This document shows positions 21,702-34,418 of a stretch of 64,000 bases of DNA, piece by piece. The position numbers were made by a program, and so were the translations under genes. This DNA comes from Vulcanimicrobiota bacterium (GTDB lineage: Bacteria > Vulcanimicrobiota > Vulcanimicrobiia > Vulcanimicrobiales > Vulcanimicrobiaceae). The notes below the pieces were generated by a model, which saw nothing but the letters and a program-made list of their open reading frames with translations, was not told the origin of the DNA and ran no database searches. The number at the start of each line of letters is the position of its first letter. Position 1 is the first letter of the stretch. The stretch lies in NCBI GenBank assembly GCA_027459645.1, contig DAIDHQ010000030.1:1-64000 (forward strand), read 5' to 3'.

Positions 21702-21729
21702 TTGACTCACGGCGTATGATGGGTATGGA
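21702..21729 (+). promoter_or_regulatory. Candidate promoter of the M-box/Nramp transcript
   Basis: TTGACT at 21702-21707 (-35) and TATGGA at 21724-21729 (-10), spacer 16. TATGAT at 21715-21720 is an alternative -10 with a poorer -35. Either would start the transcript at or just before the M-box. Confidence 0.4.
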
Positions 21730-21730
21730 T

Positions 21731-21890
21731 TCCTCGTTAGGTGAGGCGTCTGCACGAGAAAATGCCGCTGCCCGGAAAGGTCGAGAGACCCCAATGGGTT
21801 ACCAGGCACCGTCGAATCAAGGCGGTACCTAACGCGGCTCCCGCGAGGGTCACGGCGTGCAGTGCTAAAGCTCGACGTTGAGGGGAAGCC
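21731..21890 (+). promoter_or_regulatory. M-box (ykoK leader) Mg2+ riboswitch
   Basis: The conserved M-box blocks appear in order: CGTTAGGTGAGGC at 21735, GCCGCTGCCC, GTCGAGAGAC, CCAATGGGTTACCAGG, and the 3' GTGCTAAAGCTCGACG ending near 21876. The RNA binds Mg2+ and closes when the metal is plentiful. An intrinsic terminator follows at 21916-21948, then the Nramp-like start at 21974. This implies Mg2+-dependent premature termination of the transporter mRNA. Confidence 0.92.
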
Positions 21891-21915
21891 AGGAGCGATC
21901 TTGGTGTTTCGTCGA

Positions 21916-21948
21916 CTGTCGCGTGCGAGGAAGCCGCGGCAGTTTTTT
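21916..21948 (+). terminator. Riboswitch-controlled intrinsic terminator
   Basis: CTGTCGCG at 21916 pairs with CGCGGCAG ending 21942 (7 of 8 plus a G-U), followed by six T. It lies between the M-box and the transporter start, as an expression platform should. Confidence 0.8.
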
Positions 21949-21973
21949 ATTTACCAGAGAGAGGGGCCGGATC

Positions 21974-23281
21974 GTGACCTCGTCGATTCGCGTGATTCCG
22001 GTGTGGCGGCGACTGATGATCTTTTTGTCGATCGTCGGCCCCGGAATTATTACCGCGAACGCAGACAACGACGTCGGCGGCATCCTGACCTATTCGCAGG
22101 CGGGCGCTCAATTCGGGTACGGCCTGTTGTGGTTGCTCATTCCGGTAACGATCGCGCTGATCGTCACCCAGGAAATGTGCGCGCGCATGGGCGCGGTGAC
22201 CGGAAAGGGCCTCGCCGATCTGATCCGCGAGAACTTCGGCGTCAAGGTGACGTTCTGGGTGCTCGTCATGTTCGTCGTCTGCGACCTGGGGAACACGGCG
22301 ACCGAATTCGCGGGCGTCGCCTCGGTCGCGCCCATTTTCGCCGGGTTCGGGAACCTGAATCCGATCGCCGTAAAGATCGCGATGGTCGTAGGCGCGGCGG
22401 TCTTCGTCTATACGATGGTGACGCGCGGAAACTACAAGGTCGTCGAGCGGATATTCTTCGTTTTTTGCTCGATCTATCTCACCTACGTCGTTAGCGCCGT
22501 CCTCGTTCACCCCGACTGGAACGCCGTTGCAAAGGCGACCTTCATGCCGCATCTCTCGGCGTCGAAGGATTACGTGCTGATGATCATCGCGGTCATCGGA
22601 ACGACGATCTCCCCATGGATGCAATTCTACATTCAGGCCGCCGTCGTCGATAAGGGCGTCCGCGAAGAAAACTATAGCGATTCGCGCGTCGACGTGGTCG
22701 CGGGGGCGATCATTACCGACGTGATCGCCTTTTTCATCATCATCGCCTGCGCGGCTACCATCTACATTCACAACCTTCACGTGCCCGCCGCGCACCAGAT
22801 CGCCGTCAACGATGCGAGCGACGTGGCGGTCGCGTTGCAACCGCTTGCCGGCAAGTTCGCATCGCTGCTCTTCGCGCTCGGGCTCCTGAACGCGGCGGTA
22901 TTTACGGCGTCGATCCTTCCGCTTTCAACGGCCTACTACGTGTGCGAAGCCTTCGGTTTCGAACGCGGCGTCGATCACCGCTTCGGCGAAGCAAGAGTCT
23001 TTTACGGACTCTATCTCGGATTGATCGCCATCGGCGCAGGGGTCGTCATTATCCCGAACGCCCCGCTGCTTGCGATCATCTTTTACTCGCAGGTGCTCAA
23101 CGGTGCCTTGCTCCCAGTGGTTCTGGTGTTGATGCTGTTGCTGATCAACAATCGTCGCATCATGGGTTCGTGGACCAACGGCCGCGTCTTTAATGCAATT
23201 GCATGGTTGACCGTCGCCGTGGTCGTCGTACTGACCGTTATTTCCACCGTGCAGCTCATGCTGCCGGGGAGCGGAAGTTGA
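21974..23281 (+). CDS. Divergent Nramp-family transporter (NRMT-like), probably Mg2+
   Basis: This 435-residue LeuT-fold membrane protein has about 11 transmembrane helices. The first begins GPGIITANADNDVGG; where Mn/Fe Nramps have DPGN, this has DNDV. In the sixth, the usual MPH is SPW (GTTISPWMQFYIQ). Loss of the Met ligand argues against a classic Mn/Fe transporter and resembles the Nramp-related Mg transporters (NRMT). The M-box upstream supports Mg2+. GTG 21974 follows GAGAGAGGGG. A second divergent homologue is at 33132-34418. Confidence 0.88.
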   Translation: MTSSIRVIPVWRRLMIFLSIVGPGIITANADNDVGGILTYSQAGAQFGYGLLWLLIPVTIALIVTQEMCARMGAVTGKGLADLIRENFGVKVTFWVLVMFVVCDLGNTATEFAGVASVAPIFAGFGNLNPIAVKIAMVVGAAVFVYTMVTRGNYKVVERIFFVFCSIYLTYVVSAVLVHPDWNAVAKATFMPHLSASKDYVLMIIAVIGTTISPWMQFYIQAAVVDKGVREENYSDSRVDVVAGAIITDVIAFFIIIACAATIYIHNLHVPAAHQIAVNDASDVAVALQPLAGKFASLLFALGLLNAAVFTASILPLSTAYYVCEAFGFERGVDHRFGEARVFYGLYLGLIAIGAGVVIIPNAPLLAIIFYSQVLNGALLPVVLVLMLLLINNRRIMGSWTNGRVFNAIAWLTVAVVVVLTVISTVQLMLPGSGS

Positions 23282-23300: not shown

Positions 23301-25148
23301 GTGCATCTAATCGTTCTGGCTGCCGCGCTGCTCGCCGCCCCGTCGTCACCGTCACCTGCGCCGACGGCCACACCGCGTGTTGAACTGCACCTCAGCGGAG
23401 CGAACGTCTTTATCGATCAGGCGACGAACGGGCCGGGACAGGTGCCGCCCGAAGGGGCGGCGTTTGCAAACGGCGCTCCCGCTGCGCCAATGACGCCCTA
23501 CGATTGGTTTTCTACGGCGCCGCTCGTGCCCGGCGTCGGCGGCGAGCTGCAATATCGCGCAACGGCGACGCTGCACGAAAAACACTTCAGCGTCGATCTC
23601 TCGGCGATGGCATCGGCGGTCGGCGGGGACGCTACGAACACCGCGTTTTGGGGCGAACCGCTGCTCGGTTCGTTCGACCCTATCGAAGGTCGCGGAAAAT
23701 ATCCGCTGCCCATCGTGTTTCCAACGCACGCGGGCACGAACGACGTGTATGCCGCCGGATTGCAACTCCCGTACAATGTAACGCTGCGCGCAAACGACAA
23801 GCGCTGGAAGATCGGCGGCGGATACGTCGATACGAGTGGGTACGATCCGTTCGTCTTTACGCAGCCCGCATTCGCATCGGTCAATCCTTCGCTCAATATG
23901 CAGGTTTTTGAGTCGAGCGGTCCCGGGCTCTCCGATCTGGAGAGCTGGAAGCACCTCGCGAGCGCGCTTCCGCTGCTCGGCGCGGACGCGTCGCTAAAAT
24001 CGGGAGCGGTGCGATTCGAAGTGACCGATGCGTTGCTGCCGATGCTGCAGCAGTCGAACGCGCGCATGACGGGCGGCAACGCCCGGATCGATCTCGCGAA
24101 CGGCGCTCGCGTCTCCGGCGACGTCGTCCACGTGCAGACCTCGGGCGATCCACTCGCGATCCCGTCGCTCTTCGGATATGCGCCGGCGATCAATCCCGGC
24201 GCGCAGGGACCGCTCGCGCTCTCGACGCTCGGCGATCAATCGCAGACCATCGCCGGCATATGCGCGTTTCTCCACCCCGTGCGCGGCTACGACGCGACGC
24301 TGGAACTGGGGCGCGCGTGGTATGACGCATCGCTCGTGGCGCGTCCCGGAAGCTCGCATTACGGAGATTTCGAGCATCTTTCACTGACGCGCAACTTCAA
24401 CGCGAACGATTCGGCGGGAATCGAATATTACCGCATGTCGGCGCGGTATGGAACGGTGTACCTGCCCTACGGCCAGCCGCTCAACGTATGGGGCGTCGCG
24501 TGGGCGTATCCCGGCCCGTGGCTCAAGGGCGCGTATCAACTCGTCAACGACGATTGGGGCGGATCGAATCGTGAAGGCCCGCGCGTACATGTGAGCTTTA
24601 CCCGCGGCGCGTGGACGCTCGATGCCGCAGCGTACGATTACCGTCAGATCGAACCATCGACGTATCAGAATCTCACGAGCACGGGCTTCGTCGAAGTCGA
24701 CTACCTGGTGCTTTCGCCGGGCGATCTCACCTACGGCCACACGCGCGGCGTGCAGACCTATCTGGGGTGGAAGGGCGCGCGCGATACGATCTCCCTCGAC
24801 TACGCCAACGACTCCCAGCACCGTGGCTACACCGGAGCCAACGCGGTCGATCTCGTCGATATGCGCTATCCGCAGTTGGTGCTCGCCGATCAGCACGCGT
24901 TTTCGAAACACTTTCTCGCTTCCGCCGGCTACGGACGCTACCAGGCGGCCGGGATGTGGACGACCACTCCGGTCAACGGCATCTACGGGGTCGGATTCGT
25001 TGGGGCCGAGTGGGACCTGGGCCGCCTCGGCCAGTTCTTCGTGCAGCTGCGCCGTTTTGGGGTCGTCGGGTTGCCGTCGATTCCGGGAGGTCCCCCTCCC
25101 ACGCTGCGCGGGATCGGCCTCGTCGTGGACCATCACTTCCAAATCTGA
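23301..25148 (+). CDS. Exported, outer-membrane beta-barrel-like protein
   Basis: This 615-residue protein has a short signal peptide (LIVLAAALLAAPSSP), a Pro/Thr linker and then a long region of alternating polar and apolar beta-strand segments with many Tyr and Trp (YRMSARYGTVYLPYG, HVSFTRGAWTLDAAAYDYR). It ends DHHFQI, like an outer-membrane barrel. No TonB box or plug is evident. It starts 19 bp after the transporter, so it may be co-transcribed under the M-box. I do not recognise a family; passive channel or porin is an inference. Confidence 0.6.
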   Translation: MHLIVLAAALLAAPSSPSPAPTATPRVELHLSGANVFIDQATNGPGQVPPEGAAFANGAPAAPMTPYDWFSTAPLVPGVGGELQYRATATLHEKHFSVDLSAMASAVGGDATNTAFWGEPLLGSFDPIEGRGKYPLPIVFPTHAGTNDVYAAGLQLPYNVTLRANDKRWKIGGGYVDTSGYDPFVFTQPAFASVNPSLNMQVFESSGPGLSDLESWKHLASALPLLGADASLKSGAVRFEVTDALLPMLQQSNARMTGGNARIDLANGARVSGDVVHVQTSGDPLAIPSLFGYAPAINPGAQGPLALSTLGDQSQTIAGICAFLHPVRGYDATLELGRAWYDASLVARPGSSHYGDFEHLSLTRNFNANDSAGIEYYRMSARYGTVYLPYGQPLNVWGVAWAYPGPWLKGAYQLVNDDWGGSNREGPRVHVSFTRGAWTLDAAAYDYRQIEPSTYQNLTSTGFVEVDYLVLSPGDLTYGHTRGVQTYLGWKGARDTISLDYANDSQHRGYTGANAVDLVDMRYPQLVLADQHAFSKHFLASAGYGRYQAAGMWTTTPVNGIYGVGFVGAEWDLGRLGQFFVQLRRFGVVGLPSIPGGPPPTLRGIGLVVDHHFQI

Positions 25149-33131: not shown

Positions 33132-34418
33132 CTAGCCGCCCGGGTGGAGAATTGTCGTGATCGCCATCCAAAGGCCGAGCGCGACGCAGACGCCCGAGAG
33201 CGCAAAGGTGATCGCATTCCCGAGCGGACGGTTGTGCCGCTCCCCGATCACACGTTTGTCGTTCACCAGCACGAGCAAGAAGCCTAGTACGATCGGCAGG
33301 ACGAAGCCGTTGAACGCTTCGACGTAGACCGTGATCTCCACGAGGGGCAGATTCGGGATCAGCACGATCGCTGCAGCGATGCCGACGCAGCCAGCGTAGA
33401 GGCCCGTGAAGCGCTTGGCGCGCAGGCCGTCGTTGAGCGAACAGCGCCAGGAGAACGCTTCTCCGAACGCCCACGCGGTCGCGAGCGCGACCACGAATGC
33501 ACCCAGCATGGACGCACCGATCAGCGCTACGCCGAATGTGACGCCGGCGAAGCGTCCGACCAGCGGCTCGAGCGCGAGCGCTGCATGCGCGGCATCCGAA
33601 ACCGGAATGTGACGGACAAAGAGCGTCGCCGCCGTGGTTACAATGACGGCGCACATGATGATTTGCGTAAATACCGCGCCCAGCGCCGTATCGACGCGCG
33701 CAAAGTGCAGATCGGGTAACTTTAGTCCTTTATCGACCGTCGCGCTTTGCTGGTAGAAGATCATCCACGGCATGATGACCGCGCCGATGTTCGATGCAAT
33801 CAGCAACAAGTACGCGTAATTGCCGAGCGGCTGCGAGCCGAAGAGGCCTTTCATCACGACTTCCCGCAGGGGCGGATGCGCCGCGAACGCCGCCGGAATA
33901 AAGAGTAGTTCGACGAGGCAGAGCGCGAGTGCGAAATTTTCCGCGCGTTTATATTTCGCGGTGAAGATGACGGCGACGAGCAAGACTGCCGCGAGTAGTA
34001 CGAGCGGCACGGGATTCAAACCGAAAATCAGCGCGGCTCCCGCAATGCCCGCGAATTCGGTGACGAGCGCTGCAACGTTCGTGACCAGCATCGTGCCGAG
34101 CGATACCCACGCCCAACCCAAGCCGTAATGCTCGCGAATCAGGCGCGCGTGCCCCTTGCCCGTCACGACGCCGAGGCGGACGGTCATCTCTTGCACGACA
34201 AAGAGCGGTACGATCAACAGCAGTTGCAGCAAGATCAGCTTGTATCCGAACTGCGCGCCCGATGTGGCAGCGGTCGTAATGCTGCCGGCTTCCGTATCGG
34301 CAAAGGCCACGACGAGGCCCGGTCCAACGACCGCGAGAAAACGCAGCAACCAGCGCCACACCGTGCGGCGCGAGCCGTCCGAGTCGACCGGCGGGGTGAG
34401 CGATTCGAGCGAAGCCAT
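33132..34418 (-). CDS. Second divergent Nramp-family metal transporter
   Basis: This 428-residue membrane protein has about 11 helices. The first has GPGLVVAFADTEAGS, so DPGN is replaced by DTEA. The sixth has GAVIMPWMIFYQQS, keeping Met but replacing His with Trp. It thus differs both from classic Mn/Fe Nramp and from the M-box homologue at 21974. A DtxR/IdeR-like box (34424-34437) ends 6 bp before its start codon, which suggests repression by metal-loaded regulator 4845-5513. Two SCO genes follow. Confidence 0.88.
   Translation of the reverse strand: MASLESLTPPVDSDGSRRTVWRWLLRFLAVVGPGLVVAFADTEAGSITTAATSGAQFGYKLILLQLLLIVPLFVVQEMTVRLGVVTGKGHARLIREHYGLGWAWVSLGTMLVTNVAALVTEFAGIAGAALIFGLNPVPLVLLAAVLLVAVIFTAKYKRAENFALALCLVELLFIPAAFAAHPPLREVVMKGLFGSQPLGNYAYLLLIASNIGAVIMPWMIFYQQSATVDKGLKLPDLHFARVDTALGAVFTQIIMCAVIVTTAATLFVRHIPVSDAAHAALALEPLVGRFAGVTFGVALIGASMLGAFVVALATAWAFGEAFSWRCSLNDGLRAKRFTGLYAGCVGIAAAIVLIPNLPLVEITVYVEAFNGFVLPIVLGFLLVLVNDKRVIGERHNRPLGNAITFALSGVCVALGLWMAITTILHPGG

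Follow-up and report, generated by a model that had tools for sequence, protein, structure and literature searches.

Which metal is taken up by the genes behind an M-box riboswitch in a bacterium with two membranes, and which proteins carry it across each of them? Most work on Mg2+ uptake concerns the inner membrane, general porins being assumed to leave the outer membrane freely permeable. The locus considered here lies in a stretch of 64,000 nucleotides (the window) on contig C30 of a 47-contig, 3.14 Mb genome that is 96.6% complete. At 85% identity, the nearest named relatives of the transporter encoded here come from Eremiobacterota metagenome genomes. M-box control of NrmT transporters has been known since 2014 (PMC4072509). 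The first-pass annotation described an operon of this kind, made up of a riboswitch and a transporter only, and overlooked a second gene that is the more novel part of the locus and the point worth following. We think it fairly probable that the M-box operon serves to bring Mg2+ through both membranes of a diderm bacterium from the little-studied phylum Eremiobacterota, and we read it as analogous to the pe20 Mbox operon of Mycobacterium tuberculosis. The features of the locus are as follows.

21726 to 21891, forward strand: M-box (Mg2+) riboswitch aptamer, RF00380 (cmscan, 125.4 bits, full length, model positions 1-169)
21872 to 21924, forward strand: predicted antiterminator hairpin (nascent-transcript folding; boundaries approximate)
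21914 to 21948, forward strand: intrinsic terminator (folding; stem 21914-21926 with about 21933-21945, U-run 21943-21948)
21974 to 23281, forward strand: nrmT, SLC11-fold transporter, 435 aa, GTG start, site DVGG/TTIS (PF01566, EleNRMT 7qia, motifs, tree)
23301 to 25148, forward strand: predicted outer-membrane beta-barrel porin, 615 aa, GTG start (low-confidence AF2/Foldseek; M-box linkage)

The leader and the extent of the operon

An Infernal search with RF00380 gave a strong match (gathering score 44, E-value 1.1e-27 for the window), and the "full set of M-box blocks" seen previously proved to be a full-length aptamer. The "terminator hairpin with six T" was also borne out, with a stem at about 21914-21945 and six T at 21943-21948. 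This terminator was found by folding. A simple scanner limited to loops of 3-8 and no bulge missed it because of its bulge and the loop limit. With one simple rule applied to both, 97 of 120 M-box loci from the phylum had a hairpin with a T-run, as did 10 of 120 shuffles.

The antiterminator takes its 5' strand from helix P1 of the aptamer, whose 3' strand (bases 21875-21887) it uses, and the antiterminator 3' strand overlaps the 5' strand of the terminator. This alternative hairpin appeared in growing transcripts at lengths of 195-212 nt when nascent transcripts were folded. In these folds P1, antiterminator, and terminator were mutually exclusive, and the terminator and antiterminator vied for the P1 3' strand. 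The platform is predicted to be a classic arrangement that is off at high Mg2+. With high cytoplasmic Mg2+ as the presumed ligand, the aptamer would fold, P1 would keep its 3' strand, and the terminator would halt transcription. At low Mg2+, pairing of the P1 3' strand with the terminator's 5' side would let RNA polymerase continue into nrmT and the barrel gene.

The span first assigned to the locus (21731-23281) was right in that it holds the aptamer and nrmT, but the leader begins at 21726 and the likely transcription unit reaches at least 25148. The barrel gene starts 19 nt after nrmT, and the two are probably co-transcribed. A TTG at 21878 was rejected as the start of nrmT because it falls within the aptamer, and the GTG at 21974, after GAGAGAGGGG, was preferred. 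No sigma-70-like promoter was found in a promoter scan.

The genome has a second M-box (C22, L002/L084), which is followed by an MgtE_N-CBS gene and another nrmT with DVGG/TTIS. The hairpin downstream of the C22 M-box ends in TTTT only and masks the Shine-Dalgarno sequence of the next gene. Because of this, the C22 M-box may act on translation, and the two M-boxes of this single genome may have different expression platforms.

The Nramp homologue and its site

The presence of an Nramp homologue after the riboswitch was confirmed by a PF01566 match of 312 bits, with a probable start at GTG 21974 and a stop at 23281. The best solved relative in a PDB sequence search was EleNRMT, at 319 bits versus 88 bits for MntH, and the score against the NCBIfam MntH model (131) was below its cut-off of 430. 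The site was aligned with E. coli MntH (NC_000913), D. radiodurans Nramp, and EleNRMT as references. The canonical MntH motifs, DPGN and A/CxxMPH, are absent, and DVGG and TTISPW are found instead, the latter in the ATIMPH columns. The first-pass annotation had read MPH as SPW, in agreement with the alignment. Its reading of DPGN as DNDV was mis-registered and is ruled out by the alignment: in the columns of DPGN the protein has DVGG, with Gly in place of Asn and the second D of "DND" as the binding Asp.

The window NrmT therefore has the site DxxG/TxxS, compared with DxxN/AxxM in MntH. As published, Mn/Fe transporters carry the signature DxxN-A/CxxM, and NRMTs carry DxxG-TxxA/T (PMC8806188). 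The TM1 part of the NRMT signature, DxxG, is present; in TM6 the Thr is kept, the Met is absent, and Ser occurs instead of Ala or Thr. By sequence, this site appears close to the published NRMT signature, and DxxG-TxxS recurs in more than 90 homologous ORFs across the phylum. EleNRMT of Eggerthella lenta (7qia; PMC8806188) likewise has Gly at the Asn column and no Met at the site, which in that protein reads DAGG/TTIA, so that the window protein differs at the Met column, where Ser takes the place of Ala or Thr. In the proposed operon, NrmT would move Mg2+ across the inner membrane by way of a site that has Gly and Ser where Mn/Fe transporters have the selecting Asn and Met.

In a tree of 102 proteins, the window NrmT fell into a set of 82 that includes EleNRMT, with a support of 96 (SH-aLRT), and E. 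coli MntH and D. radiodurans Nramp lay far outside this set. The tree was built by a quick method with EleNRMT in and CabNRMT not in, and several of its branches are long. The window protein thus groups with EleNRMT and away from MntH. The 82-protein set also holds Acidobacteriota proteins. EleNRMT transports Mg2+ and also Mn2+ (PMC8806188). The NrmT of A. capsulatum, which has no M-box, appeared to be chiefly a Mn2+ transporter and complemented Mn2+ transport, whereas an M-box-controlled NrmT restores Mg2+ uptake (PMC4072509). The clade alone leaves the metal unsettled because Acidobacteriota are in the set and the A. capsulatum NrmT carried Mn2+. The M-box is a stronger argument for the metal than the clade.

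Other Mg2+ importers and Nramp genes in the genome

No match above cut-off to CorA, the MgtE channel, or MgtA was found in the genome (96.6% complete). It contains five Nramp-family genes, none of which has the canonical Mn/Fe site. From these two findings we infer, reasonably in our view, that SLC11-fold proteins would be the main Mg2+ importers here. The earlier proposal that this lineage takes up Mg2+ by an SLC11-fold protein is supported by the RF00380 match, the tree, the PDB search, the site, and the lack of matches above cut-off to CorA, MgtE, and MgtA; such uptake is already known in kind (Shin 2014; Ramanadane 2022). Because neither a CorA nor an MgtE channel turned up in this genome, Eremiobacterota is one more lineage whose Mg2+ supply may rely on SLC11-fold proteins.

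A second Nramp-family gene lies in the window at 33132-34418 on the reverse strand. Its site is EAGS/AVIM, with Asp changed to Glu, Asn changed to Ser, and Met retained. Two further Nramp-like genes of this genome (L085 and L087) have the sites DPSG/TTIT and DPTT/TALT and very long tree branches. Elsewhere in the phylum, a branch of 540-aa Nramp proteins with a C-terminal extension and the site DAGA/TTVA or TTIA is often first after M-boxes (L003:6459-8081, L133, L138, L172, L176, L198, L210).

The barrel protein

The second gene, present as one copy in this genome and almost all others, encodes a 615-aa protein with no Pfam, NCBIfam, or PDB sequence match. About 21-22 homologues gave no Pfam match either. 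The N-terminus has a hydrophobic, signal-like segment, and the C-termini of the homologues have alternating hydrophobic residues, which we take to be typical of barrel C-termini. Two AF2 models from ten sequences showed about 20 long strands, both at low confidence (mean pLDDT 43.6 and 52.6, pTM 0.39 and 0.53). For the better model, all of the 50 Foldseek matches listed were outer-membrane barrels, among them maltoporin, MOMP, Occ porins, and OmpF. Over both models the matches had weak TM-scores, and those listed were outer-membrane proteins, AlgE included. Because the models are of low confidence, the outer-membrane beta-barrel is given as the likely fold class and no family is assigned.

OprB (PF04966) was considered as an identity and rejected. 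Neither the window barrel nor any of 22 homologues matched PF04966, and in a profile comparison with the M-box-linked OprB set only an N-terminal low-complexity stretch aligned.

In Vulcanimicrobium, a cultured relative, the envelope is Gram-negative and its outer membrane contains LPS (PMC9758169). If located in an outer membrane, the barrel protein would admit Mg2+, and probably other cations too, through the outer membrane.

The barrel family and M-boxes across the phylum

The M-boxes of 149 phylum genomes were surveyed. An M-box was present in 96 genomes, and 120 loci were fetched and their downstream genes listed. With the window added to these 120 loci, the barrel family was found downstream and on the same strand of 27 M-boxes, against a chance expectation of only 0.13 (P about 1e-54, relatedness ignored). 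The 27 linked genomes belong to 11 genera and 3 families and show six gene orders. The barrel was the first recognised gene after the M-box in 17 of the 27 and was seen with no Nramp downstream at 8 loci. The gene orders after the M-box were the following.

MgtE_N then Nramp: about 38 loci
nrmT alone: 32 loci
barrel then nrmT, the homologous barrel gene of relatives lying between M-box and nrmT: 9 loci
barrel alone: 8 loci (L118 and L168 are examples)
Nramp of another branch then barrel: 6 loci
nrmT then barrel: 2 loci, the window being one of them
others: further single cases

At five further M-box loci the barrel is replaced by other porins, namely OprB (PF04966; L140, L175, and L204) or small barrel-like proteins (L128 and L235). 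The small proteins, L128:1062-1910 and L235:8394-9263, are 282-289 aa long and unrelated to the window barrel; one of the two had a weak, sub-threshold Phenol_MetA_deg match. L128 retains the etfB-etfA-TPR neighbours of the window. MgtC genes were found at 15 of the surveyed M-box loci, mostly in line with the operon, and in several operons that also carry the barrel; at L172 the order is M-box, Nramp, barrel, mgtC.

Strong barrel matches occur in 54 genomes; in 27 of them the gene stands apart from an M-box or its position could not be judged. Twenty unlinked copies were inspected, a few of them at contig ends, and neither an M-box nor an Nramp gene was nearby. Since half of the strong-match genomes lack M-box linkage, the barrel family is probably not exclusive to the Mg2+ regulon and probably consists of porins that were repeatedly recruited to that regulon or kept in it.

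Alternative roles for the two genes

One possible explanation, which we regard as unlikely, is that only the NrmT half matters and the barrel is a neighbour with no Mg2+ role beside a published M-box/NrmT arrangement. The NrmT half does match the published system nearly throughout (PMC4072509, PMC8806188), and half of the barrel genes are away from any M-box. However, a mere neighbour fits poorly with a barrel that is first after the M-box in 17 loci and stands without a downstream Nramp in 8, with six gene orders in 11 genera (27 linkages observed versus 0.13 expected), and with unrelated porins in the same position at other M-box loci.

Another possible explanation, less likely again, is that the barrel stabilises or remodels the outer membrane once Mg2+ no longer bridges LPS and does not serve Mg2+ entry. 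OprH of Pseudomonas is a proposed outer-membrane stabiliser at low Mg2+. The same regulatory logic and outer-membrane location would fit such a role, as would a barrel that sequence searches place in no family. The size of the protein, about 600-700 aa with a low-confidence model like 16-18-stranded porins, is however far above that of an OprH-type 8-stranded barrel, and the barrel alternates in position with OprB-type channel porins.

That the transporter mainly imports Mn2+, or divalents broadly, with an M-box that answers Mn2+ or several divalents, seems very improbable: the Mn2+ transport by the A. capsulatum NrmT (PMC4072509) and EleNRMT (PMC8806188) and the mycobacterial M-box class beside Mn2+-type transporters (PMC12810186) speak for it, but the aptamer is a strong, full-length M-box, the other obvious Mg2+ importer families are absent above cut-off in the genome, and M-boxes of the phylum accompany MgtE_N and MgtC genes.

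If Mg2+ uptake across both membranes is the correct reading, the passage of Mg2+ through the outer membrane would itself be regulated in a diderm phylum, as suggested for PE20/PPE31 of M. tuberculosis. A Mg2+ riboswitch would then stand repeatedly over porin genes, sometimes with a porin gene as the only recognised gene behind the M-box. The outcome is a named, testable set of barrel proteins.

Comparison with known systems

The NrmT genes of C. acetobutylicum (Ca_c0685 and Ca_c3329; PMC4072509) share with the window an M-box and terminator directly upstream and the same clade type. In contrast to C. acetobutylicum, the window nrmT has an outer-membrane barrel gene beside it in a host with an outer membrane. 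The adjacent MgtE N-domain gene of most NrmT operons of Shin et al. is absent beside the window nrmT; such a gene (PF03448 + CBS) is present at the second M-box of the genome.

In M. tuberculosis, the Mbox-rv1805A-pe20-ppe31-...-mgtC operon encodes envelope proteins proposed to be part of a Mg2+ transporter and has a conserved small upstream ORF; mycobacteria also have an M-box class adjoining Mn2+-type transporters (PMC12810186). The M. tuberculosis operon likewise places an M-box over low-Mg2+ envelope proteins and mgtC, and relatives of the window, too, have small ORFs behind the M-box. It differs in having PE/PPE proteins in a mycobacterial envelope, where a beta-barrel in a Gram-negative-type envelope is predicted here, and a translational/Rho platform with no NrmT, in contrast to the intrinsic terminator found here.

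MnoP-MntH of Bradyrhizobium combines a dedicated outer-membrane channel with an inner-membrane Nramp importer, for Mn2+ and under a protein regulator. The pairing of channel and Nramp importer, predicted here, is the point of likeness, whereas the window operon has an M-box RNA in place of a protein regulator for Mn2+.

A search of open-access papers other than preprints found no report, outside mycobacteria or on this phylum, that links an M-box to an outer-membrane porin. The importer half follows a known arrangement; the channel half appears to be new. The window operon joins the M-box/NrmT and M-box/envelope-protein ideas, with a Gram-negative-type envelope and a predicted beta-barrel, a combination described in none of the papers found.

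Small ORFs and unusual M-box loci in relatives

In relatives, a short ORF that begins ATG GAY GAY GGN CCN (MDDGP...) and has a strong Shine-Dalgarno sequence lies directly after the M-box terminator. It was seen in 24-25 of 123 M-box rows (for example L130, L134, L144, L148, L124, L126, and L146), its third codon positions vary, and it does not occur in the window. The acidic and proline-containing start resembles MgtL-type Mg2+-sensing leader peptides (PMC11552253). We put forward tentatively, at somewhat less than an even chance, that the M-box of Eremiobacterota rules the whole Mg2+ supply line, including an undescribed family of Mg2+-admitting porins that sometimes has its own M-box, and that in relatives the MDDGP... 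acidic leader peptide would be a second, ribosome-based Mg2+ sensor.

Another conserved micro-ORF, about 45-50 aa long and ending ...HDDTLRANQ....FSYWRALVS, was found at about 25 loci. It is located downstream of the M-box and ahead of the barrel or Nramp gene (L130, L134, L137, L144, L148, L150, L160, L202, and others) and is comparable with rv1805A of M. tuberculosis. An Rfam search of L126, L146, and L134 for a further RNA element downstream of the M-box gave the M-box only.

After the M-box matches of L124, L126, L206, and L232, no recognised Mg2+ gene is seen among the next large genes; those of L124 and L126 are nuo genes. These four loci are possibly degenerate or unusual members of the regulon.
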